Below, piece by piece: positions 6,084-28,711 of a stretch of DNA of 30,101 bases; within the stretch, counting starts at the first letter, position 1; every line of letters begins with the position of its first letter. The position numbers and the translations under genes were made by a program. The notes under the pieces were generated by a model that saw nothing but the letters and a program-made list of their open reading frames with translations, did no database searches and was not told the origin of the DNA. This DNA comes from a virus. The stretch lies in IMG/VR virus record IMGVR_UViG_3300025301_000073, positions 1 through 30,101 of that record; one strand, written 5' to 3'.

Positions 6084-6815
6084 TCACTCCAGCAATCGGG
6101 CCATACGGTCCCGTAATGGGAATAAGTTCTGGAGCGTCCGGGTCGGTGCTGCCCCGCCCTCTCCGGCATGGATAGCCGGTGGTTCGCTGGAATCCTTCGG
6201 ACGCTTGGGATATGGTTTGGAAAGGGAAGCTATCTGCTCTTTCATGGAGTCATCAAGTGGGTACAGATAACGGTATTTCCCTTCCAACGGAATCGCTATA
6301 CAGTCCCTGACCTTCGGGACATGGGTCATAACTCCAAACTGCCGAGCATATCCCGATGCAGTCACTTGCCTATCTCGATACCGCCGACCATCTGCGCTAA
6401 TATAATCATTCTTGCTTGAGGTCTTTCCACAATACATCCAGCCCGCACCTTGATAAATGCCCCCATGATGCCCCTCGTTGGTGTCCGCAAAGGATACAAT
6501 AAGCCGAAGCCCGGATTCCTTTCTTCGTAACATCGCAACAGCAATAGTCAGGATACGTGACACTGGGACTATATGAGCAGTTATAGCGACCCTAGTTAAC
6601 TCTGCAACTTCCGTTTGCTGCAACCCATAAGCCGCCCCCAGATGCGGACTAGCCCCACGGGCAAAAACTACGCATCCAATAAATTGGTCACACTCCCACA
6701 CCCCAATTCTAATTGTTGGCGGCATCGGCATGCTCTTGGAATAGTGCCAATGTTCCACCGCATACTTGGCAGCAGCGTGGGAACACCAATCGAGTTTAAG
6801 GTCTGCCTTGTTCAC
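6084..6815 (-). CDS. mom: Mom-family DNA base modification protein (GNAT fold)
   Basis: It resembles phage Mu Mom, a GNAT-fold enzyme that adds a carbamoylmethyl (acetamido) group to N6 of adenine and makes phage DNA resistant to many restriction enzymes. Visible family features are HWHYSKSMP (22-30), IGVWECDQFIGCVVFARGA (37-55), ELTRVAI (72-78), PVSRIL with S86, SFADTN with D111, and YQGAGW (121-126). The tail after about residue 195 is charged, proline-rich and probably disordered. The start is GTG (6813-6815), overlapping the ParB stop as GTGA with no ribosome site. Translation therefore probably depends on coupling, or on relief of the stem at 6792-6826. The gene is AT-richer than its surroundings: the line 6541-6600 has 27 G+C of 60. 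The chemical product cannot be predicted from sequence. Confidence 0.82.
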   Translation of the reverse strand: MNKADLKLDWCSHAAAKYAVEHWHYSKSMPMPPTIRIGVWECDQFIGCVVFARGASPHLGAAYGLQQTEVAELTRVAITAHIVPVSRILTIAVAMLRRKESGLRLIVSFADTNEGHHGGIYQGAGWMYCGKTSSKNDYISADGRRYRDRQVTASGYARQFGVMTHVPKVRDCIAIPLEGKYRYLYPLDDSMKEQIASLSKPYPKRPKDSSEPPAIHAGEGGAAPTRTLQNLFPLRDRMARLLE

Positions 6816-8081: not shown

Positions 8082-8419
8082 CATTCCCCTCCCAATACCC
8101 GCTCGATCTCCCCGTCCAGGCCGTCCGGTCTCCAGAGGAAATATTCCACGCCGGGGCATTCCGAGAGGACTTGTCCCCATTCGTCTTGTCCTGGGAGCCA
8201 GCGGTTGCCGGACTTGTTCCACCGGCCCTTGGTCAATCGGCCCTTTACCGTCTTGAGTTCCGCGAAGATAACCCGGTGCTGGGTTGGATGCACCATCCGG
8301 AGGTCTGGCTCCCCCGGCTCGGACTTCCGGGCGTCATAGGTGAATCCCACGATCCAGCCATAAGTCCGGGCCAGGGCGATGACGGTCGCCTGGAAGTCCT
8401 TCTCGGTGATGAGTTGCAT
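8081..8419 (-). CDS. VRR-NUC domain nuclease
   Basis: This 112 aa PD-(D/E)xK nuclease is of the VRR-NUC family, found alone in phages and fused to FAN1 in eukaryotes, and thought to cut branched DNA. The core is GEPDLRMVHP (D39), then IFAELKTVKG with E54 and K56 as the ExK pair, then a Gln/Trp region (PGQDEWGQVL near 76-85). A helical N-terminus (TEKDFQATVIALARTYGW) leads into the core. Such nucleases usually sit next to an SNF2-type helicase in phage genomes. Here a methyltransferase lies between the two. The ATG overlaps the methyltransferase stop as TGATG. Confidence 0.9.
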   Translation of the reverse strand: MQLITEKDFQATVIALARTYGWIVGFTYDARKSEPGEPDLRMVHPTQHRVIFAELKTVKGRLTKGRWNKSGNRWLPGQDEWGQVLSECPGVEYFLWRPDGLDGEIERVLGGE

Positions 8420-9366
8420 CAGATATCCATAGAAAATGGCACATCCTCAACCCGCTCGATATGGAGTAGATTCTTTTGTGCCTGTCTAAAATAACTCGGC
8501 TTTAGTTCTACTCCGATGCCAAGACGCCCCAGTTGGACCGCTTCGTAAACTTCGGACCCGACTCCCATAAACGGCGTGAAGACCTTCTCACCTGGGTTTG
8601 ACCAAAGCGTAACGCACCGATTGATTACGTCTAATTGCAGGGGATGTATATGCTTTTCGTCCTGTTGGTCTCTTGCTTCGCGATAGGGCAGCACCCGGTC
8701 AAGACGTATGTCATCCCAGAACGCCGAGGCGTACTGCCGCCATATCCAATGAGAATATCGGTTCTCTATTTGGTTTCCCTCCATCCCTCTCAGATGGTGC
8801 AATTCGGCGGGTACTTGTCTCTCACCAACGTATTCAGTCAATCCCACCGGGTGAACGATCGGGACCGGATTCTCTCCATGCCGCCGAAATACCAGGAGGT
8901 AATCTGCTGAGGCCACGCTGCACCGGGACGAATCCTCAATCAAACTCCGATGAGCCAAGTTTTTAGCCATTGTCCGATTACGAACGGTCAGCGGTTCCTT
9001 CCAAACGTGGTAACGAGCGATGTACTCAAATCCGATGTCTTTGTGCAGTCGGATAATATCGCCAGGAAAGTCCTTCAGAACGTCAACTCCGGTATTACCC
9101 GATGGGACGTCCATGCAATGCACCGCGGTCATTCGCCCCGGCATAGTTAGGCGGAATAATTCCTGCACCACAAATCGGTAATGCTCAAAAAATTCCTCAT
9201 AATTACGGCAGTTCGATAGATCATTTTCAGAGGACGAATAGTGATAGAGTCCGGCAAAGGGAGGCGAATATACTGATAGGTGGATGGACTCACTAGGCAA
9301 GGTGGGCATCACCTCGCAACAGTCACCCAGATAAATAGCATATTGGTCTGTGATCTCTTGATTCAT
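8419..9366 (-). CDS. Beta-class DNA methyltransferase (N4-cytosine or N6-adenine)
   Basis: The enzyme transfers a methyl group from S-adenosylmethionine to an exocyclic amino group of C or A. The catalytic motif IV, VYSPPFAGLY (SPPF at 34-37), comes first, followed by a long target-recognition region. The SAM motif I/II region comes last (FTPFMGVGSEVYEAVQ, then GIGVELKPSYF). This IV-TRD-I order defines the beta class. SPPF is common in N4-cytosine enzymes, but base choice cannot be settled. No cognate restriction enzyme is nearby. ATG at 9364-9366 overlaps the helicase stop (TAATG), and an ATG nine bases upstream (9375) is equally possible. The DNA is AT-rich for this window: 9181-9240 has 21 G+C of 60. 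Confidence 0.92.
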   Translation of the reverse strand: MNQEITDQYAIYLGDCCEVMPTLPSESIHLSVYSPPFAGLYHYSSSENDLSNCRNYEEFFEHYRFVVQELFRLTMPGRMTAVHCMDVPSGNTGVDVLKDFPGDIIRLHKDIGFEYIARYHVWKEPLTVRNRTMAKNLAHRSLIEDSSRCSVASADYLLVFRRHGENPVPIVHPVGLTEYVGERQVPAELHHLRGMEGNQIENRYSHWIWRQYASAFWDDIRLDRVLPYREARDQQDEKHIHPLQLDVINRCVTLWSNPGEKVFTPFMGVGSEVYEAVQLGRLGIGVELKPSYFRQAQKNLLHIERVEDVPFSMDI

Positions 9367-17986: not shown

Positions 17987-18217
17987 TTAGGCGTTGGCGT
18001 GGTCTTCCAGGTGCCGGACCAGGTTGCCGCGGAGGTCGCGGACATCGGTCTTGATCTCCCCGATGTCGTCCCGAAGGCCGTCCAGCTTGGCGACCACGAC
18101 CTGGTAACGACCGTTGCTTCCGTTCCCATGCCGGCGAGAGATTATGGCCCAGGCCACGACGACGACCAGGACTCCGATGGGGCCGACTATCTCGGCCAAG
18201 CCAGCCAGGTCTTCCAT
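17987..18217 (-). CDS. Holin-like small membrane protein with coiled coil
   Basis: This 76 aa protein has one hydrophobic segment near residues 10-27 (VGPIGVLVVVVAWAIISRR) followed by a charged coiled coil (VVVAKLDGLRDDIGEIKTDV, then RDLRGNLVRHLEDH). This shape matches BhlA/UviB-type small holins, and the position at the end of the structural genes supports a lysis role. No endolysin is recognised next to it, so a tail- or membrane-associated role is also possible. The ATG directly follows the preceding stop. Confidence 0.55.
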   Translation of the reverse strand: MEDLAGLAEIVGPIGVLVVVVAWAIISRRHGNGSNGRYQVVVAKLDGLRDDIGEIKTDVRDLRGNLVRHLEDHANA

Positions 18218-21790: not shown

Positions 21791-23547
21791 TATGCCCTCG
21801 CCAGTACGCCGGAGAATCCACCGCCCAGGACGGCATCCCTGATGACGCTGGTCACCTTTTGCTGGAAGTCATCGAAGCCGTTTACGTCCCCATTTATCAC
21901 CAGATTGATCGTCATGCCGGCGCCGCCGCCTTTCAATGGCGCAACCGAAGCCCCTCTCGGCAGGGAGAGCAATTCCGGGCCGCGTTCTCCCACGATCGCC
22001 GAACCGCTTTGGGTTATCACCCCGCCAGCCGCTAACCCCGGAATGGGGTCTATTTTCGGGATTCCGAACCGTCCGGGAAGTTTATCTACTATGGCGTTGA
22101 TCCTCCGAATCCAGACATTGAGGCCATCAACCATGGAATTCAAAATGCCTTTAATTACGGGCATGATGGCCTTGCCTTTGATAAAGTCCACTATGGCATT
22201 CCAGATGCCCATGATACGAGTCTTGAAGTTCTCGAATGTCCCGACCAGGGCATCGGTCACTGTCGTGAAAGTGGACTTGATGCCGCCCCATATCTCGTCC
22301 CAGTTATCTTTCAAAAACAAGATAGCTTTGACCAACGGACCCGCCGGGAGAAGCCATCCCAGCTTTGAGTTGTAGAGGCTCGTGATCTTGGTAAAGACCG
22401 TCTGGATCGTCTCCTGGATAAAAGCGAATATCTCGCCCCAGTTCTTCTTCAGAAACAGGATGCCCTTGACGAGCGGCCCCGCCGGGAGGAGCCAGCCAAG
22501 CTTGGAGTTGTACAATTCGGTAATCTTGCCGATGACTTTCTTCACGATCTCAGAGATGAAGTTAAATACCTTCTCAAAAGTCACCCGGAGGGCGTTGACG
22601 ATGGTGTCCCAGTTCTGCCAAATCAGAATCCCGGCAGTGATGGCCGCGGCGATCCCCACGACCGCAAGGGTCACCGGGAGCATGGATAAACTGAGCGAAC
22701 CGAAGGCCACGCTGAGTATCCCGATTGCCGCCGCCATCGTTGGCAGTAGTAACAGAAGCGGTCCGACTACCAGGGCCACCGCTCCCAAGGCCGCGACCAC
22801 TATCATCAAGACCTTGGTCAACTGGGGATGCTCGGTGGAGAAGGCGATCAGCTTGGTCGTGACTTTCTCCAGGATGACCGCCATCGAGGTTAACGCTGGC
22901 ATCAATGCCTTGCCGAACTCTTGCTGGAGGTCACCCACCCGGTTCTTGAGTTGGACCATCGGGTCCGCCGCCGCCTCGGCTTGTCCCCCGAATTTAGCCA
23001 TGATGGCCGCGATAACCTCGGTGGCCCCGGCACCCTTCTCCACCTCGATGCCGTAACGCTTGAGCGCGGAGGTCTCGCCGCCGATGGCCCTCGCCACCAG
23101 GGTCGAGGCCGCGCCCAGGTCCATCCCCTTCCCAGCCGCCAGGTCGAGGACCGCCGGAAGCGCCGCCATCGCGGACTCGTAGTCCCCGGAGACACTGATC
23201 AAGCCCATCAAGGCGTCCCGCTGGGCCTCGTCCCCGAAGTTGGTCTTATTCTGTTGGGCGGCGATGACCCGCTCGATGGCCGCGGCCTGGGCATCGTAGG
23301 ATGTCCCCACGTTCTTGAGGGCTACATCCAACTGGGCGATGCCGATGGCCTCCTCCTGGGCGGACTTGACCGCAGAGACGCCAAGCGCGGTTATCCCGGC
23401 GCCGATCGCCGAGAGGCCGATGCCGATGGCCTTGCGGTGTTTCTTGATGCCGTCCGCCATCTTCCCAAAGGCCGACTGAGTCTTCTTGAATCCCGCCTCG
23501 GCGTTCTTCGGGTCCGCGGTTATCTGTATCTCGACCTGGTTAGCCAT
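21790..23547 (-). CDS. Tape measure protein
   Basis: This protein sets tail length and is ejected with DNA. At 585 aa, the usual 0.15 nm per residue predicts a tail near 90 nm. The N-terminus has SAFGKMADGIKKHRKAIGIG, then helical Ala-rich sequence with LDVALKNVGTSYDAQAAAIE. Residues about 245-310 are strongly hydrophobic, suitable for membrane passage. Two 46-residue repeats follow at 342-433, both carrying LYNSKLGWLLPAGPLVK. The C-terminus has AAGGVITQSGSAIVGERGPE, common in tape measures. The ATG overlaps the end of the chaperone frame by 8 bp. Confidence 0.93.
   Translation of the reverse strand: MANQVEIQITADPKNAEAGFKKTQSAFGKMADGIKKHRKAIGIGLSAIGAGITALGVSAVKSAQEEAIGIAQLDVALKNVGTSYDAQAAAIERVIAAQQNKTNFGDEAQRDALMGLISVSGDYESAMAALPAVLDLAAGKGMDLGAASTLVARAIGGETSALKRYGIEVEKGAGATEVIAAIMAKFGGQAEAAADPMVQLKNRVGDLQQEFGKALMPALTSMAVILEKVTTKLIAFSTEHPQLTKVLMIVVAALGAVALVVGPLLLLLPTMAAAIGILSVAFGSLSLSMLPVTLAVVGIAAAITAGILIWQNWDTIVNALRVTFEKVFNFISEIVKKVIGKITELYNSKLGWLLPAGPLVKGILFLKKNWGEIFAFIQETIQTVFTKITSLYNSKLGWLLPAGPLVKAILFLKDNWDEIWGGIKSTFTTVTDALVGTFENFKTRIMGIWNAIVDFIKGKAIMPVIKGILNSMVDGLNVWIRRINAIVDKLPGRFGIPKIDPIPGLAAGGVITQSGSAIVGERGPELLSLPRGASVAPLKGGGAGMTINLVINGDVNGFDDFQQKVTSVIRDAVLGGGFSGVLARA
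22249..22524 (-). repeat. Tandem 138-bp repeat inside the tape measure gene
   Basis: Two direct copies (22387-22524 and 22249-22386) encode residues 342-387 and 388-433 of the tape measure. The core LYNSKLGWLLPAGPLVK is identical at the protein level, while the DNA has diverged at silent positions (for example TTTGAGTTGTAGAGG against TTGGAGTTGTACAAT). The duplication is therefore not very recent and the peptide is under selection. Confidence 0.85.
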
Positions 23548-23695
23548 CGCCCTCTGGTTGTCCTTCCTGTACTATCGCCACCATGCGGAGGATCGTTACG
23601 TCCTCGGCCATCAACTGGGATGGAAGGCATGAATACCTCTGGCAGAGGCCGTCTATCAACTCGGCCTCCTCCAGTTCCCAAGGTTTGGTTATCAT
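23540..23695 (-). CDS. Tail assembly chaperone, second frame (gpT-like)
   Basis: This is 51 aa from ATG at 23693-23695: MITKPWELEEAELIDGLCQR, then YSCLPSQLMAEDVTILRMVA. It lies in the -1 frame relative to the first chaperone, directly between it and the tape measure, the standard place of the gpG-gpGT pair. The ATGA overlap allows re-initiation. A -1 frameshift in the overlapping open frame (open to 23884) would give a fusion. I see no classic slippery heptamer near the junction. Confidence 0.75.
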   Translation of the reverse strand: MITKPWELEEAELIDGLCQRYSCLPSQLMAEDVTILRMVAIVQEGQPEGDG

Positions 23696-24102
23696 TCGCC
23701 CGTCGCGGTCGATGCCGCCGCCAACGTGCTTAAATCGCCGGATGGCGGTTCCAAAGGGACCGGCACCGCCGACACCGCCTCGATCCAATGTTGGACGATA
23801 AGCATGGCCAGACTGAGCGGGATCTGGAGCATCCCGTCCCCGGTCGCCGGGACCGGCGCCCCGGATGCGTCCTCCAGGTTCCACTCCATCAAGACTTCAC
23901 TCCCGAATAGCTCGGCCATCTTGGCCTGGTCGTCACCCTCGGCGGCTTCCCGGAGGGCGATATAGTGGGCAAAGCTGACGTTGAGCTTGACCCATATCTC
24001 GGCCCCGTCGTAGTCCGTCCCGCTAAATGTTATGTGGGCGGTCTGGTCCGGGATGCGAAAGCCCTTCTTGGTCTGGGCCGTTGTCCCGTTAATAGCGACC
24101 AT
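23692..24102 (-). CDS. Tail assembly chaperone, first frame (gpG-like)
   Basis: This 136 aa protein, located between the tail tube gene and the tape measure, should coat the tape measure during tail assembly. An N-terminal beta part (KGFRIPDQTAHITFSGTDYD, then EIWVKLNVSFAHYIALREAA) is followed by a helical part (LSLAMLIVQHWIEAV) and a low-complexity end (LSTLAAASTATGE). Assignment is by position and by the overlap with the second chaperone frame. The ATG follows the tail gene stop with no spacing. Confidence 0.75.
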   Translation of the reverse strand: MVAINGTTAQTKKGFRIPDQTAHITFSGTDYDGAEIWVKLNVSFAHYIALREAAEGDDQAKMAELFGSEVLMEWNLEDASGAPVPATGDGMLQIPLSLAMLIVQHWIEAVSAVPVPLEPPSGDLSTLAAASTATGE

Positions 24103-24507
24103 TTACGCCCACGTTGGGACAACGCCGCCGGCAAGGGCGCCCGGAGCCGACCAGGTCAACTCCCCGGATGCCGACCGGCTCAACGCATAGTCCGTATAGA
24201 ACAACTCACCCGGCAAGGTCTGGCCGGAGACCGCCAGGGTGGTCGTCCGCGCCACGCTGGTCGATGAGACCGTCTTGAATACATCGTGGCTCATATTCGA
24301 CGCATCGTTGAAGACGCCCGAGATTGCCACCGTGAAGTCCGCCAAAAGTAGCAGACGTTCCCTGGCCGACTTGTCCAGCCCGGTGATGTCTTGCTCCTCC
24401 CTCGGCGTGGCGATGTCGATCGAGGTTATGTCGTTTGAGATCGTCCGGGCCGACCCGCCCGAATCGTCGATGATCGCGCTCATTCCTAGTCCTGATTCTT
24501 TAGCCAT
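24103..24507 (-). CDS. Second major tail-like protein (short paralog)
   Basis: This 134 aa protein has an N-terminal half matching the protein at 27120-27866: MAKESGLG against MAKKSGLG, PREEQDITGLDKSARERLLL against PRELLDITGLNASAHERVMG, and VFNDASNMSHDVFK against WFNDATEQEHAAFK. It ends YALSRSASGELTWSAPGALA, a typical tail tube terminus. Placed directly before the chaperones, it is in the canonical tail tube position and may be the principal tube protein. GGAGGAGTGTAA precedes the ATG. It lacks the C-terminal beta domain of its longer paralog. Confidence 0.82.
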   Translation of the reverse strand: MAKESGLGMSAIIDDSGGSARTISNDITSIDIATPREEQDITGLDKSARERLLLLADFTVAISGVFNDASNMSHDVFKTVSSTSVARTTTLAVSGQTLPGELFYTDYALSRSASGELTWSAPGALAGGVVPTWA

Positions 24508-24868
24508 TTACACTCCTCCGATATTGGTGGTCGTTCCAGTTGTCCATAAATTCCAGCGGCTCCATGACCCGGTTGTCCCTGGTCAATATCGGGTCTCGCT
24601 CGACCGCTACCCTATGCCCTCCACCCTGGCCGGTGAAGCACTCCTGTCCCGGCGTGAAGGTGAATATAATCAATCCATCCTCGCGCTCCTCCCTGAAGCC
24701 CATATTCGACCGGCGGACCATCTCTATATTTGCTATATCGTCCGCCGGCAAGATCGTCTTCCAGCCCACCGCGTAATTGACGCATCCGATCTCCAGACAG
24801 CTCACCTCCCGCCAGTGGTCCCTCGGGCGGTTGAGGACGTAATGGGTCAATAACCCTCGGCTAGTCAT
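24500..24868 (-). CDS. Unknown Cys-containing protein of the tail/membrane cassette
   Basis: This 122 aa protein has no membrane segment. Conserved-looking features are REVSCLEIGCVNYAVGWKTI (C24 and C29), FREEREDGLIIFTFTPGQEC followed by FTG, and WNDHQYR near the end. From memory, small proteins with a Cys pair, GW and GQxCF occur near tail genes of actinobacterial phages without known function. It overlaps the tail gene by 8 bp and the preceding membrane gene by ATGA. Confidence 0.68.
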   Translation of the reverse strand: MTSRGLLTHYVLNRPRDHWREVSCLEIGCVNYAVGWKTILPADDIANIEMVRRSNMGFREEREDGLIIFTFTPGQECFTGQGGGHRVAVERDPILTRDNRVMEPLEFMDNWNDHQYRRSVNG

Positions 24869-25062
24869 TCCTTGTCCTCGTCCGTCCCAGAGTCGATTAT
24901 CCGGAGGCTAACGCCGCCCAAGAACCCAAACAGGCCGCCGATAAGAGCCGTTAAAATCTCGGTGGCTCCCATACGCCACCCGAAATAGCCGAAAACTATC
25001 GAACACACCGAAGCCGATATGATCGCGGCCAATATCTGGGGCCGGAGGGCGGTCATCCTCAT
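24865..25062 (-). CDS. Small two-helix membrane protein, holin-like
   Basis: This 65 aa protein has hydrophobic segments near residues 9-29 (ILAAIISASVCSIVFGYFGW) and 36-54 (ILTALIGGLFGFLGGVSLRI) and an acidic tail (DSGTDEDKE). Two helices with a short turn fit class II-like holins or pinholins. It overlaps the next gene as ATGA. It is the best holin candidate in this cassette, but no endolysin accompanies it. Confidence 0.65.
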   Translation of the reverse strand: MRMTALRPQILAAIISASVCSIVFGYFGWRMGATEILTALIGGLFGFLGGVSLRIIDSGTDEDKE

Positions 25063-25190
25063 AACCGTACCCAGTAAAGCCCGGTGTCCGATTGATACAT
25101 GGCTTGCTCTCTAACTCGGCAGATGCGGCAGACCCGGACGGACCACTCCTCCGGAAGCTGCCGCCACCAGTGTCGGTTGAACCAGCACAT
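25059..25190 (-). CDS. 43-residue Trp/Arg/Cys-rich peptide
   Basis: The peptide reads MCWFNRHWWRQLPEEWSVRV, then CRICRVREQAMYQSDTGLYW and VRL. It has a CxxC knuckle and a Trp-rich N-terminus that could sit at a membrane surface. The ATG (25188-25190) overlaps the previous stop as TGATG, and its own stop overlaps the next gene as ATGA. No family known. Confidence 0.6.
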   Translation of the reverse strand: MCWFNRHWWRQLPEEWSVRVCRICRVREQAMYQSDTGLYWVRL

Positions 25191-25408
25191 CAATAAGCCT
25201 TCGCCAGGAAGCGCCGGCAGTCCCGGCAATATGGCTCCGAGTTCTGGTTGGCCGGGTTGACGCCCCAGGTCTCCCGACCGTGAAAGCCGATATAGCAAGC
25301 GGCGAGTCTTACCAGCCGCCGCGGCCCCTCGTATAACCACACCAGCATAGAGACAAAACCGATGATGGCTACCATACCGGCCAGAACGCTCAGGGCTAGG
25401 AATCGCAT
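25190..25408 (-). CDS. Small membrane-anchored protein with CxxC tail
   Basis: This 72 aa protein starts MRFLALSVLAGMVAIIGFVS, one strong N-terminal membrane helix (residues about 3-25), and then has a basic and polar part (YEGPRRLVRLAACYIGFHGR) and YCRDCRRFLAKAY at the end. The N-terminus could be an uncleaved anchor, so the tail would be outside or inside depending on topology. ATG at 25406-25408 overlaps the end of the preceding gene. Function unknown. Confidence 0.6.
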   Translation of the reverse strand: MRFLALSVLAGMVAIIGFVSMLVWLYEGPRRLVRLAACYIGFHGRETWGVNPANQNSEPYCRDCRRFLAKAY

Positions 25409-25536
25409 AAGACACCCACGCCGTAAGCCAGACCGACCAGGAAGATCAGCCCGGTAAACATGAGGATACCGATGGCCCAGAATACGGTGGACCAATCCAG
25501 GCTGAACCCATAACGGTTAATCCTGTTCCGCATCAT
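25396..25536 (-). CDS. 46-residue single-helix membrane peptide
   Basis: The peptide is MMRNRINRYGFSLDWSTVFW, then AIGILMFTGLIFLVGLAYGV and GVLCDS: a basic N-terminus and one membrane helix (about 18-43). The ATG overlaps the stop of the coiled-coil protein as TGATG, and the end overlaps the next gene by 13 bp. Confidence 0.6.
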   Translation of the reverse strand: MMRNRINRYGFSLDWSTVFWAIGILMFTGLIFLVGLAYGVGVLCDS

Positions 25537-25934
25537 CACTTGCCACCGTACCCGCCATAATCTCGCCGCTCCCCGGACGGCAGGGCGCCGATCTCTCCCA
25601 GTTCCCGCAACACATCCGCGAAGCCTTCATGGTCCCCCATGATGGTCGCCATCTGGTCGTTAGCCAGAACGAGGTCGGTCTCCATCCCGCTGATCCTGTC
25701 CGAGAGGCCGTTGGTGATGGTCACCAGGTCTCCCGCCTGGTCGGTGTGGAGGTCCGTCCTTAATGTCCGCTCGTTCTCCATCCGCACATTGATGGCGGCG
25801 ATGTCCTCCTGGACGGCGGATATCTGCTTGACCGCGTCGGTAACGTCATTCCGGACGGTCAAGACCCAGCCAATTATTCCTACGGCTAATAATATTAGCG
25901 GGAGGATGGCGCCGATGAGTCCGAGGTGTTTCAC
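25536..25934 (-). CDS. Membrane-anchored coiled-coil protein
   Basis: This 132 aa protein has an N-terminal membrane helix (LIGAILPLILLAVGIIGWVL, residues about 5-25). A long coiled coil follows (NDVTDAVKQISAVQEDIAAI, then RMENERTLRTDLHTDQAGDL) to about residue 110, and a glycine-rich end (YGGYGGK). It starts with GTG (25932-25934) overlapping the previous stop as TAGTG. The architecture recalls i-spanins or small tail-associated anchors, but no lipoprotein partner with a lipobox is visible. Confidence 0.65.
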   Translation of the reverse strand: MKHLGLIGAILPLILLAVGIIGWVLTVRNDVTDAVKQISAVQEDIAAINVRMENERTLRTDLHTDQAGDLVTITNGLSDRISGMETDLVLANDQMATIMGDHEGFADVLRELGEIGALPSGERRDYGGYGGK

Positions 25935-26815
25935 TATTGCACCTTGATCGGGCGGTCCTGTATCGTGTTCGTTATATTTCGGGCCGACACGCTGTCCTCA
26001 ATCCGACATGAACTTGAGTCCACGCCGCTCCCGTCCCCGACGAGGTTGGAATTATTGAATGTGGCCGTTCCGATTTTAAGCCTAGAAAAATAAGCTTCGC
26101 CGTTCCACGCATCCACATTGTCCAGTATGAGATTTTGAACGAAGGCGCCGGAGTTCCCGGTTATGTGAATCTGAATCCTGTCCACGATCGACCCGTTCAC
26201 TTCGTACACAGAACTTAGGCGTTCTGACTCCAGCACCATATCCGGGACCGTGTTGGAGATGGTCGCCGCCATCGTATGGCCGTCGCATAAGAGGCCAGTT
26301 ACCAAGTTGGCAACGTCGGACGTTTCCATTTGAAAAGTCGGAAAGGACGAGTTGGTAACCGTTAGATTCCCCACCCATAGATACGCCGTCGCACCGGTGA
26401 CCGCGTTGGTCAACGGGCTGATGTCCAGCGCCCTTGAGATGCCGGTCCGTCCCAGGTCAACGTCTTTTATCCTCAAGGTCGAGATTCTACTGCCATTTCC
26501 GAGGCGAATCGATAAGGTCTGGCTTTCCGACCCGTCCGGGTAGTCCGGGTTCTTCTTGCCCATCGTTTGAAGCCCCGCCTCGGTCACCTGATATTCGGCT
26601 GGCTCCGGCCAGTTGTAGGTCGAGGACGCCACATCCTTGATGGCGAAATAAAGCCCAACCGCCACCGCTGCAGCACTGACCACGATGGCAAATACCACGA
26701 CCGTGGTCACATGACGGTTGGCGAAGCCCACCCGAAACAGTCTGAACGCCGGCAATCTGGGAGACGGGATGCGCCGGTCTCCCACCATTCGGCATATCTT
26801 TTCAAATAAGGTCAT
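25934..26815 (-). CDS. Large membrane-anchored beta-rich protein, unknown
   Basis: This 293 aa protein has a basic N-terminus (RRIPSPRLPAFRLFRVG) and one membrane helix at about 36-59 (VTTVVVFAIVVSAAAVAVGL). The remaining 230 residues have many short beta turns with Asn, Asp and Ser ladders (TAYLWVGNLTVTNSSFPTF, IHITGNSGAFVQNLILDNVD, then IGTATFNNSNLVGDGSGVDS). The pattern looks like a right-handed beta-helix or pectate-lyase-like fold. This topology, cytoplasmic basic end and extracellular beta domain, is unusual inside a phage tail operon. It could be a surface-displayed superinfection or host-surface factor. I recognise no family. The ATG overlaps the previous stop as ATGA. Confidence 0.65.
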   Translation of the reverse strand: MTLFEKICRMVGDRRIPSPRLPAFRLFRVGFANRHVTTVVVFAIVVSAAAVAVGLYFAIKDVASSTYNWPEPAEYQVTEAGLQTMGKKNPDYPDGSESQTLSIRLGNGSRISTLRIKDVDLGRTGISRALDISPLTNAVTGATAYLWVGNLTVTNSSFPTFQMETSDVANLVTGLLCDGHTMAATISNTVPDMVLESERLSSVYEVNGSIVDRIQIHITGNSGAFVQNLILDNVDAWNGEAYFSRLKIGTATFNNSNLVGDGSGVDSSSCRIEDSVSARNITNTIQDRPIKVQ

Positions 26816-27120
26816 TTACCATTCTGTCCTGGTGCGCTGAATAATGACTGGAGTATGCCGGTGACCGGGATGGTCAAGATGGAGAGGGTCATTACCAAAG
26901 GTTCGACGTTGGATAAAACATGCTGACTCGTAGTTGCGCTGATGATGATGCGGCTTCCCAGGAACAACCAGGTGAAAACCACCGGCGCCGCTATCACCAG
27001 CCGGACGATATCCCCGGAGGTCATCTGTATCTTTTCGGACTTGTCGTCGGTCGCCTTTAATCGTGCTAATTCCTCCCGCGCGAGGCGTAGTTCCTCCTGG
27101 ACATCGTCCGGCGTTGTCAT
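26812..27120 (-). CDS. Small membrane protein with N-terminal coiled coil
   Basis: This 102 aa protein has a charged N-terminal helix (DDVQEELRLAREELARLKAT) followed by two hydrophobic helices, about 38-58 (DIVRLVIAAPVVFTWLFLGS) and 72-95 (VEPLVMTLSILTIPVTGIL). It is first in the membrane cassette, starting directly at the end of the long tail tube gene (TAATG). Holin-like dimensions; function unknown. Confidence 0.65.
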   Translation of the reverse strand: MTTPDDVQEELRLAREELARLKATDDKSEKIQMTSGDIVRLVIAAPVVFTWLFLGSRIIISATTSQHVLSNVEPLVMTLSILTIPVTGILQSLFSAPGQNGK

Positions 27121-27866
27121 TAGAAGGCGACATCATCCTGGCTTGTCCCCCTCCTGGTCGAGACGCAGAAGTCCAGGTTGGAGAATGTCCCGGTGGTGGT
27201 GATCCGGAGATACCGCTCCACCGCCCCGCTGACCGTCACCCGTTCCGCCGTCGGGGCCGCCGCCGCGGCGACCGCCGTGAAGGACAGGACCGTGGCGAAT
27301 GCATCGCTGGACCCATTATCGCTGGACTGCTGGATGGTCACGGTCGGCGTCCCGGAGTCGATGTCGGTTATCTCCAGGTATGCCACCATGCCGGCGCTAC
27401 TCGCGGCGCCGTCGTCCCGGCTGGTCGAATTGCCAGCGCTGGAGTGAGTCTCCTTGCCGGTGGTCAAAGTGTCGCACCAGTCCAGGGAGACGCCGTCCGC
27501 CTGGGTGTCGATCGTGAAGGATAACGACCCATCGGCCCCGCGGCTCGGGTCATAGTTGATCTGTTTCCCTACTAAACAAGCGGCAACGTCCCCGCGGGTC
27601 GCACCGAATGCCCAGGTCACGATCCGGTCGGTGGTCACAAGTCCCTTGAAGGCCGCGTGTTCTTGCTCGGTGGCATCGTTGAACCAGGAGGAGACCCCGA
27701 GGTTGCCGTCCGACAATCCCATCACCCGCTCATGGGCCGAGGCGTTAAGCCCGGTTATATCCAACAATTCCCGAGGACTTCCGGCGTTATCTATCGTGGC
27801 AACGTCCCCCGACAAGTCGTAACCGTGAACGAATATCTGCTGACCGAGTCCTGATTTCTTTGCCAT
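27120..27866 (-). CDS. Major tail protein, long paralog with C-terminal beta domain
   Basis: Of 248 aa, residues 1-130 are homologous to the protein at 24103-24507 and belong to the siphovirus tail tube type. LSFTIDTQADGVSLDWCDTL marks the end of this domain. Residues about 145-248 add a second beta-sandwich-like domain (AYLEITDIDSGTPTVTIQQS, then AERVTVSGAVERYLRITTTG), similar to Ig-like or carbohydrate-binding decorations found on tail tubes. The position after the tail terminator gene is normal for a tail tube gene. Having two is not. It is coupled to the membrane cassette by TAATG. Confidence 0.82.
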   Translation of the reverse strand: MAKKSGLGQQIFVHGYDLSGDVATIDNAGSPRELLDITGLNASAHERVMGLSDGNLGVSSWFNDATEQEHAAFKGLVTTDRIVTWAFGATRGDVAACLVGKQINYDPSRGADGSLSFTIDTQADGVSLDWCDTLTTGKETHSSAGNSTSRDDGAASSAGMVAYLEITDIDSGTPTVTIQQSSDNGSSDAFATVLSFTAVAAAAAPTAERVTVSGAVERYLRITTTGTFSNLDFCVSTRRGTSQDDVAF

Positions 27867-27875
27867 ATCCTCTCC

Positions 27876-28310
27876 CTATGGAGTGATGGTTACTTCTTCG
27901 TAAAGTTGGATGTCGAATGGGATGGTCGCCGTCCGGTACAAAGCCCCGCCCATGTCCAGCGTGGCGACCGTGGCCGACCCGACCGTGGAGTCGGTGCAGT
28001 TCCCGTCCAGGTTTGCGTCGGACCGGAGTTTGGTATCCACCTCAACCATCGAGTCCCAAAGTTCCAATTCGATGGACTCCCTAACGTCTGCCGACGCCTG
28101 GAGCCGGAAATAGGCCCGGACCATGATGGTCGTCGTCGAGCCGATATCCGACAATGTCTGCCAGCCGTTAGTCCGGGCCTGGACCCAGTACGCCAGGACC
28201 GGAGTCCCGGACAACGCCAGAGGCTCGGCCCGGATGACCGCGACGAATGCCGGGTCGGTGATGGTCGATAACAAGACATCGATCCTGTCCAATGCCCCGG
28301 AGCGGCTCAA
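27876..28310 (-). CDS. Tail terminator / tail completion protein
   Basis: This 144 aa protein lies directly before the tail tube gene, as the gpU/Ne1-type terminators do. It has a mixed alpha-beta layout: a helical start (RIDVLLSTITDPAFVAVIRA), strands (LAYWVQARTNGWQTLSDIGS and TTTIMVRAYFRLQASADVRE), a helix (SIELELWDSMVEVDTKLRSD) and final strands (TIPFDIQLYEEVTIT). This matches the family fold. Assignment rests on position and fold impression. ATGA overlap with the gp10-like gene. Confidence 0.72.
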   Translation of the reverse strand: MSRSGALDRIDVLLSTITDPAFVAVIRAEPLALSGTPVLAYWVQARTNGWQTLSDIGSTTTIMVRAYFRLQASADVRESIELELWDSMVEVDTKLRSDANLDGNCTDSTVGSATVATLDMGGALYRTATIPFDIQLYEEVTITP

Positions 28311-28711
28311 TCGAATGCCTCGATCAAAGCCCCGCCGATGTACTTGTGATATAGCGCGGCTTTGTCCCGGTTGATGGCGTTGGTGGCGTTCTCAAACATG
28401 TGATACATCGCCTCGACCTTCGGAGCGTAATGGACGCCGCCAGCGTCGAAGATTGCCAGATTGTCGGAGGGCTGACTGGCAGCGACCCGCCGCTTGAGGT
28501 CGCGGGTATGGGCGCCGTGTCGGTCAGCCGGTTTGGACTTCCAATACTGGGAAGCCGGTGGGCCCCAAAGTTGGTCTTTGACCTTGTTGGCCCCTTCCAA
28601 GACCGCGATATCGAATAGCCCCCGGTTGATGATGCCCTGCATAACCTTCAAGCCGGAGCCGTCAAAGACCGGGCCGGTAACCTCAAAGTGGACGCCGAAT
28701 GGTTCAGCCAT
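28307..28711 (-). CDS. HK97 gp10-like head-tail joining protein
   Basis: This 134 aa protein lies between connector and tail terminator, where the HK97 gp10 family sits. Typical features are a helical start (GLKVMQGIINRGLFDIAVLE), GANKVKDQLWGPPASQYWKS, and a late helix (PKVEAMYHMFENATNAINRD). It should close the head after packaging or prepare for tail docking. The ATG overlaps the connector end by one base. Confidence 0.75.
   Translation of the reverse strand: MAEPFGVHFEVTGPVFDGSGLKVMQGIINRGLFDIAVLEGANKVKDQLWGPPASQYWKSKPADRHGAHTRDLKRRVAASQPSDNLAIFDAGGVHYAPKVEAMYHMFENATNAINRDKAALYHKYIGGALIEAFD

Follow-up and report, generated by a model that had tools for sequence, protein, structure and literature searches.

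A mobile cassette of small membrane-protein genes between two tail tube genes of a marine siphophage: a candidate endolysin-free lysis system

The IMG/VR virus contig IMGVR_UViG_3300025301_000073, analysed here over its whole length of 30,101 bases (the window), comes from a marine bacterial virus, a siphophage with nearly all of its genes on the minus strand. Our subject is a run of overlapping genes between two of its tail tube genes, and in particular the set of small genes named here g1 to g7. The upstream border of the run is tt1 (27866-27120, minus strand), the major tail tube gene of 248 amino acids (phrog_9522 major tail, E = 9e-17; PF16460, 8e-4, below the cut-off), and the downstream border is its shorter homologue tt2 (24507-24103, minus strand), a single-domain paralogue of 134 amino acids (phrog_10528 major tail, 7e-5). 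A preliminary description had already named both flanks as tail tube genes and placed seven coupled genes, six of them for membrane proteins, between them. The flanks and the coupling stand, with all nine neighbour pairs from tt1 to tt2 (27866 to 24103) overlapping by 1-14 nt, and six membrane proteins are indeed present (g1-g5 and g7); the count needs correction, as there are eight open reading frames (ORFs), each overlapping the next, of which the 43-residue g6 had been overlooked. Since 23 of the 50 same-strand neighbour pairs in the rest of the window also overlap, coupling in the block is denser than usual, yet common elsewhere in this phage. The ratio of nonsynonymous to synonymous substitution rates (dN/dS) is at most 0.35 for all eight ORFs in every computable comparison (up to eight relatives), i.e., they are under purifying selection and are therefore true genes rather than chance ORFs. 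A scan of positions 24000-28400 found two promoter-like sites inside the block against 2.4 expected and three terminator-like sites against 3.4, none above chance, the promoter model being a sigma-70-type consensus.

All block genes lie on the minus strand; the program that called them and the one that counted their helices on the Kyte-Doolittle scale were both made in-house. That count gives two membrane helices each to g1 and g7, one each to g2, g3, g4 and g5, and none to g6 and g8. Directly behind tt1, g1 (26812-27120; 102 amino acids; dN/dS 0.08-0.15) combines an N-terminal charged coil with its helix pair, and g2 (25934-26815; 293 amino acids) follows with a basic N-terminus. The next gene, g3 (25536-25934; 132 amino acids; GTG start; dN/dS 0.12-0.21), bears an N-terminal membrane helix, an ectodomain that is charged and coil-like by inspection, and a conserved C-terminal motif; its layout is spanin-like, with no match to a spanin family and a weak one to the minor-tail family phrog_404 (E = 0.017). 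Two small genes with supporting dN/dS values come next, g4 (25396-25539; 46-47 amino acids) and g5 (25190-25408; 72 amino acids), the latter with a Cys pair in its C-terminal tail. The overlooked g6 (25059-25190; dN/dS 0.06-0.33) carries a conserved C-x2-C, which we would guess to be zinc-ribbon-like. Finally, g7 (24865-25062; 65 amino acids) belongs to a family of helix-pair proteins of about 50-70 residues and is holin-like, with weak matches to phrog_785 holin (E = 0.006) and, below the cut-off, PF05106 (E = 0.011).

The largest product, g2, is predicted by AlphaFold2 to be a membrane-anchored beta-solenoid, with the membrane helix at about residues 34-60 and the solenoid at 66-293 (mean predicted local distance difference test score, pLDDT, 79; ectodomain mostly about 90). 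Between g2 variants the first 90 residues are nearly identical and the ectodomains share only about a third of their residues; against the variant of locus L011, identities per 30 residues run 28/30, 23/30, 27/30 and then mostly 6-13/30, as if the ectodomain had been exchanged on a fixed anchor. D178, G179, R199 and D212 are invariant and H180 nearly so. Foldseek matched the model to no PDB entry at E <= 0.001, VIA-align returned only 4qrk (Z 3.2 over 124 residues), and a sequence search against solved structures gave none. BFVD holds five close viral models, unnamed, the best at 62% identity, which we take to come from deep-Mediterranean fosmid phages.

The last ORF, g8 (24500-24868; 122 amino acids, soluble), which the preliminary description had included in the membrane block, is a core tail gene outside it. 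In distant relatives a g8 homologue is all that separates tt1 from tt2, and g1-g7 are absent there; in Streptomyces phage Dagobah (MT711977.1, 10776-12377), for instance, tt1, the g8 homologue and tt2 are adjacent and coupled. This arrangement, a g8 between the two tail tube paralogues, is conserved from marine phages to Dagobah and actinobacterial prophages. C24, C29, C77 and H85 of g8 are invariant over 34 sequences and might, as a guess, form a metal site; compared with solved structures, its model (pLDDT 90) gave nothing convincing (best Z 3.8).

Relatives were gathered by searching viral contigs with tt1, g2, g1 and a tt2 alignment, and bacterial genomes were also searched; a few tblastn matches to tt2, all in short loci, turned out to be tt1 and were disregarded. 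Most of the IMG/VR contigs used presumably come from the deep ocean, judging by their sample numbers. Clustering over 59 distinct blocks placed 42 proteins with g7, the most widespread member, 37 with g3, 32 with g6 and 27 each with g1 and g2, while g4 and g5 merged in one cluster of 28. Between tt1 and g8, order and membership vary from the window type (g1-g2-g3-..-g6-g7) to g7-g6-g3-g1-g2, n3-g1-g2-g7-n1-g6-g3, a short g7-g6-g3 and g7 alone, n1 being an additional membrane peptide of some cassettes. A g2 profile search of 26 records found the gene in 16, at several kinds of site. Behind the tail and fibre genes, g3-x-g1-g2-x-TM-g7 (TM, a transmembrane gene) closes the late operon in G012 and G017, and n3-(g1)-g2-g7 does so in G013, G014 and G016; n3-g2-TM-g7 stands behind a fibre-like gene in G010, g7-g1-g2 directly after the chaperone gene in G021, and in G023 g1-g2 lie upstream of a portal-size gene while g7-g3 remain between tt1 and g8. 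In four unrelated phages with neither tt1 nor tt2 (G006, G007, G019, G020), g1-g2-..-g7 is embedded in a different set of structural genes, a sign that the cassette acts on the host and not on the tail. Of the pattern that the preliminary description had held against its own idea, a block absent from relatives with its genes scattered singly, the absence at this site is seen in distant relatives; g1, however, stands immediately upstream of g2 in 27 of 27 g2-bearing blocks, and the pair moves to other sites. In sum, g1-g7 are a shuffled, transferable cassette with a recurring core of g1-g2, g7 and g3.

Three further genes accompany the cassette in some phages. The gene h (17987-18217, minus strand; 76 amino acids, one membrane helix and a coil; phrog_3534 of unknown function, 1e-4) closes the late operon; in the window and in G004, G008, G009 and G018 it stands apart from tt1-tt2, but its homologue adjoins g7 in the unrelated G007, so that h probably belongs to this cassette and has been displaced from it. 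In L016, L019, L051 and L053 and in G010, G013, G014, G016 and G018 the cassette is joined by n3 (122-138 amino acids), a nuclease-like gene whose motif we take to be that of a staphylococcal-nuclease-type enzyme and which mostly stands directly before g1-g2 or g2. A conserved soluble protein of 72-80 amino acids, for which no family match was found, follows g7 in lower-GC marine relatives (L226, 2694-2936; homologues in G010 and G016).

In several relatives the cassette stands in the place of a lysis module. G011 carries an Amidase_2 endolysin (1.6e-24) with an adjoining holin gene (phrog_443, 3e-10), and a contig of a Dehalococcoidia metagenome-assembled genome (MAG) carries an Amidase_2 gene (8.8e-8) just downstream of its tail genes; these occupy the very place, the end of the late operon, that the cassette holds in G012, G013, G014, G016 and G017. 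The cassette is thus positionally equivalent to endolysin-holin cassettes, and shares with them the usual location of lysis genes in those five relatives; in the window it lies elsewhere, with just h left at the operon end. Cassette and endolysin also alternate: Amidase_2 scored above the cut-off in none of 19 virus records with g2 versus 25 of 51 without it (hypergeometric 4e-5; 2e-4 once the four unrelated phages are left out; kinship not being corrected for). This 70-record table leaves aside the bacterial genome G001 (a prophage with amidase and no g2), G002 and G003; one further g2-negative record, G636, has an Amidase_2 match below the cut-off, and the Dagobah endolysin (22923-23849) matches at 5e-22.

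Nor was another peptidoglycan hydrolase of any Pfam family found among the 53 window proteins. None appeared, among the matches listed, in 68 of the 70 non-redundant proteins from G009, G010, G012, G013, G016 and G017 (those of at least 70 amino acids that matched neither the window nor our own family models; matches listed to E = 3.8e-4), nor in 64 representatives of 100 proteins from G006, G007, G019 and G020, where one protein of 1700 amino acids was omitted. The Pfam alignment scans cover the best 25 families, and the negatives extend to eleven cassette phages, whose contigs may be incomplete.

Several lines bear on the host. The closest cellular tt2 in genome contigs, among 28 loci listed, is that of the Dehalococcoidia MAG (71%), followed mostly by Streptomyces at 67% and lower, apart from a later entry that reaches 71% across a shorter stretch; tt2 occurs in 3 of 393 Dehalococcoidia genomes. 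In G017 a candidate phage attachment site (attP; L230, 5042-5101) resembles the 3' end of a tRNA-Ser gene and lies beside a tyrosine integrase, so that some relatives are likely temperate; no tRNA gene was found in the window itself. Against Dehalococcoidia tRNA genes this site scores best at 92% over 61 bases and 95% over 59, with at least 82 bits in 9 of 393 genomes among the matches listed. SAR202 genomes are described as lacking peptidoglycan synthesis and the cells as having a wall resembling a surface layer (S-layer) (PMC10444878, PMC11994032), and PMC10284905 gives peptidoglycan as ancestral in the class and lost in marine Dehalococcoidia. Such a loss would explain an amidase in one member and none in the marine group. 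We suggest, tentatively, a peptidoglycan-less, S-layered marine Dehalococcoidia (SAR202) as host; for most deep-ocean fosmid viruses the host was given as unknown in a 2016 study (PMC4981710).

On balance, we lean towards reading g1-g7, with their core of g1-g2, g7 and g3, as an endolysin-free lysis or egress cassette that recombination brought into the tail tube region from an earlier place at the late operon's end; by means of it these viruses probably escape from hosts in which the usual cell wall may be missing. Towards the end of infection, the holin-like g7 would permeabilise the cytoplasmic membrane, aided by g4, g5 and perhaps h. The g1-g2 pair would assemble in the membrane and display the g2 solenoid outside, where it might engage, exclude or destabilise the host surface layer by binding or disrupting the S-layer, and the g3 coil would extend outward, spanning the gap as a spanin-like strut. 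A peptidoglycan hydrolase would not be needed, because the host is probably without peptidoglycan. In a review of archaeal viruses (PMC4456609), endolysin-holin egress is considered ineffective in cells without murein, a holin with S-layer-breaking proteins is hypothesised for wall-less archaea, and S-layer proteins are called very diverse; that diversity would fit the swapped g2 ectodomains. More speculatively, this could be the first recognised lysis system against bacteria without peptidoglycan, in which a holin-like protein and the g1-g2 solenoid open the SAR202 cell, which replaced the ancestral amidase endolysin when the phage lineage shifted to these hosts, and which spread as a unit among unrelated phages of the same hosts. 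A literature search, with preprints and most subscription papers outside it, found no account of tailed-phage exit from peptidoglycan-less bacteria or of SAR202 or Dehalococcoidia phages doing so.

A number of observations weigh against this interpretation. In a tree of tt2 the g2 records all belong to a single 15-row clade (support 100/98), in which amidase is absent, so that the alternation is largely one evolutionary contrast; the neighbouring group includes Dagobah, the Dehalococcoidia prophage and a further two records with amidase. This tree has 51 rows and covers cassette phages with tt2; from the second set of 46 records, 13 were dropped as the start pattern found no tt2, including both g2 records of that set (G646, G647). 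Three records in the g2 clade are g2-negative. In two of them, G015 and G022, the sequence breaks off shortly after the tape measure gene, at the point where the cassette is expected. The third, G008, at 29 kb and with its late operon end present, has no g1, g2, g7, convincing g3 or Amidase_2, and is either a real exception or an incomplete genome; its match to the g3 model (E = 4e-5) was rejected as a helix-turn-helix protein. Eleven short-block records (8-14 kb fragments) have g7 and often g3 with no g2 in the sequenced part. g7 resembles holins weakly (E = 0.006-0.011), and the cassette phages may encode a hydrolase that goes unrecognised. As to the host, g2 was found in none of the 393 Dehalococcoidia genomes, the Dehalococcoidia relative that was found bears an endolysin, and the attP of G017 does not discriminate, since it also matches tRNA genes of Acidimicrobiia (best 93% over 57 bases; 2 of 198 genomes).

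The strong variation of gene content and order among close relatives would equally fit the main rival to a lysis role, namely a hypervariable island for superinfection exclusion or surface remodelling, in which the g1-g2 solenoid masks a receptor or blocks entry of competitor DNA and the small membrane proteins are further exclusion factors. Surface display or superinfection exclusion was among the three readings offered by the preliminary description, and the several tiny membrane proteins, the variable accessory genes and an ectodomain swapped on a conserved anchor suit it. Superinfection exclusion usually needs early or lysogenic expression, however, and here no promoter rises above chance and all genes are coupled to late tail genes; no PADLOC match is better than E = 0.048, and the cassette replaces the endolysin both in occurrence and in position, all of which makes exclusion rather unlikely. 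The other two readings of that description, a displaced lysis cassette and an adaptation to an unusual host envelope, agree best with what was found and are partly supported, both by the late-operon-end position shared with amidase and holin and by the hydrolase searches in cassette phages, which found none; lysis itself, the part played by each protein and the host remain matters of inference.

The endolysin position would also suit a g2 that acts as a wall or glycan hydrolase, exported to the membrane and so far unrecognised. It would then be an analogue of signal-anchor endolysins, and the set an ordinary holin-enzyme-spanin cassette whose enzyme has a new fold. Its N-terminal membrane helix and conserved D178, G179, R199, D212 and H180 are what such an enzyme might show, but neither fold nor sequence gives an enzyme-like match among solved structures and the ectodomain is highly variable, and we regard this as clearly unlikely. 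That g1-g7 are other host-takeover or accessory membrane genes, moron-like and with no part in lysis or exclusion, would agree with their variable content and with the nuclease-like n3 in some cassettes; a g1-g2 and g7 core that recurs and alternates with the endolysin renders it quite improbable. Least credible, and very improbable indeed, are tail or virion components, e.g., membrane-contacting tail parts made with the tube. The site between two tail tube genes and the weak minor-tail match of g3 hint at such a role, yet the genes are missing from the tails of distant relatives with the tt1-g8-tt2 order, occur in unrelated phages and outside the tail operon, and are not conserved with the tail genes across relatives, as g8 alone is.

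Elsewhere in the window, a Mom-family DNA modification protein (PF25680, 2e-42; probably at about 6084-6815) and an N6/N4 DNA methylase (PF01555, 1e-16; probably at 8419-9366) lie among the early genes. We rejected the idea that a programmed frameshift joins the chaperone ORFs c1 and c2, because c2 starts at an ATG of its own, which overlaps the stop codon of c1. The window (1-30101) yielded no major capsid gene; in relatives (G004, G005, G018) a 435-residue gene, probably for the capsid, lies between a protease-size gene and the adaptor, and the contig is therefore probably cut there.

SAR202 is reported to dominate dark-ocean bacterial communities (PMC11994032), and phage release of these cells would thus matter for carbon turnover. 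Should the cassette prove to be a lysis system, it would provide a set of named genes with a conserved core, and a structural model that can be put to the test; it is also an example of a lysis-type cassette that has jumped into the interior of a tail operon.

Among known systems, the cassette invites comparison with the superinfection-exclusion morons that occur in lambdoid phage tail regions, e.g., HK97 gp15, which are likewise small membrane-protein genes among tail genes, variable between relatives; those carry their own promoter and terminator, whereas neither rises above chance here, and translational coupling to tail genes and alternation with an endolysin set our genes apart. With holin-endolysin(-spanin) cassettes they share small membrane proteins, one of them with weak holin similarity, late-operon expression, and a place where they replace the amidase-holin pair in several relatives; they differ in having no recognised peptidoglycan hydrolase, in pairing an anchored beta-solenoid with a dedicated partner, and in lying between tail tube genes in the window. 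The outer-membrane lipoprotein partner of a two-component spanin would not be needed in a monoderm host. A hypothetical parallel, by description rather than homology, is the S-layer egress of archaeal viruses through virus-associated pyramids (PVAP; as outlined in PMC4456609), where membrane protein(s) also open an S-layered, murein-less cell, although the proteins here are several and their layout is unrelated. The tail region of Dagobah, in turn, shares tt1, a g8 homologue and tt2 with the window, there adjacent and coupled, but it has no membrane cassette, and this phage encodes an Amidase_2 endolysin.

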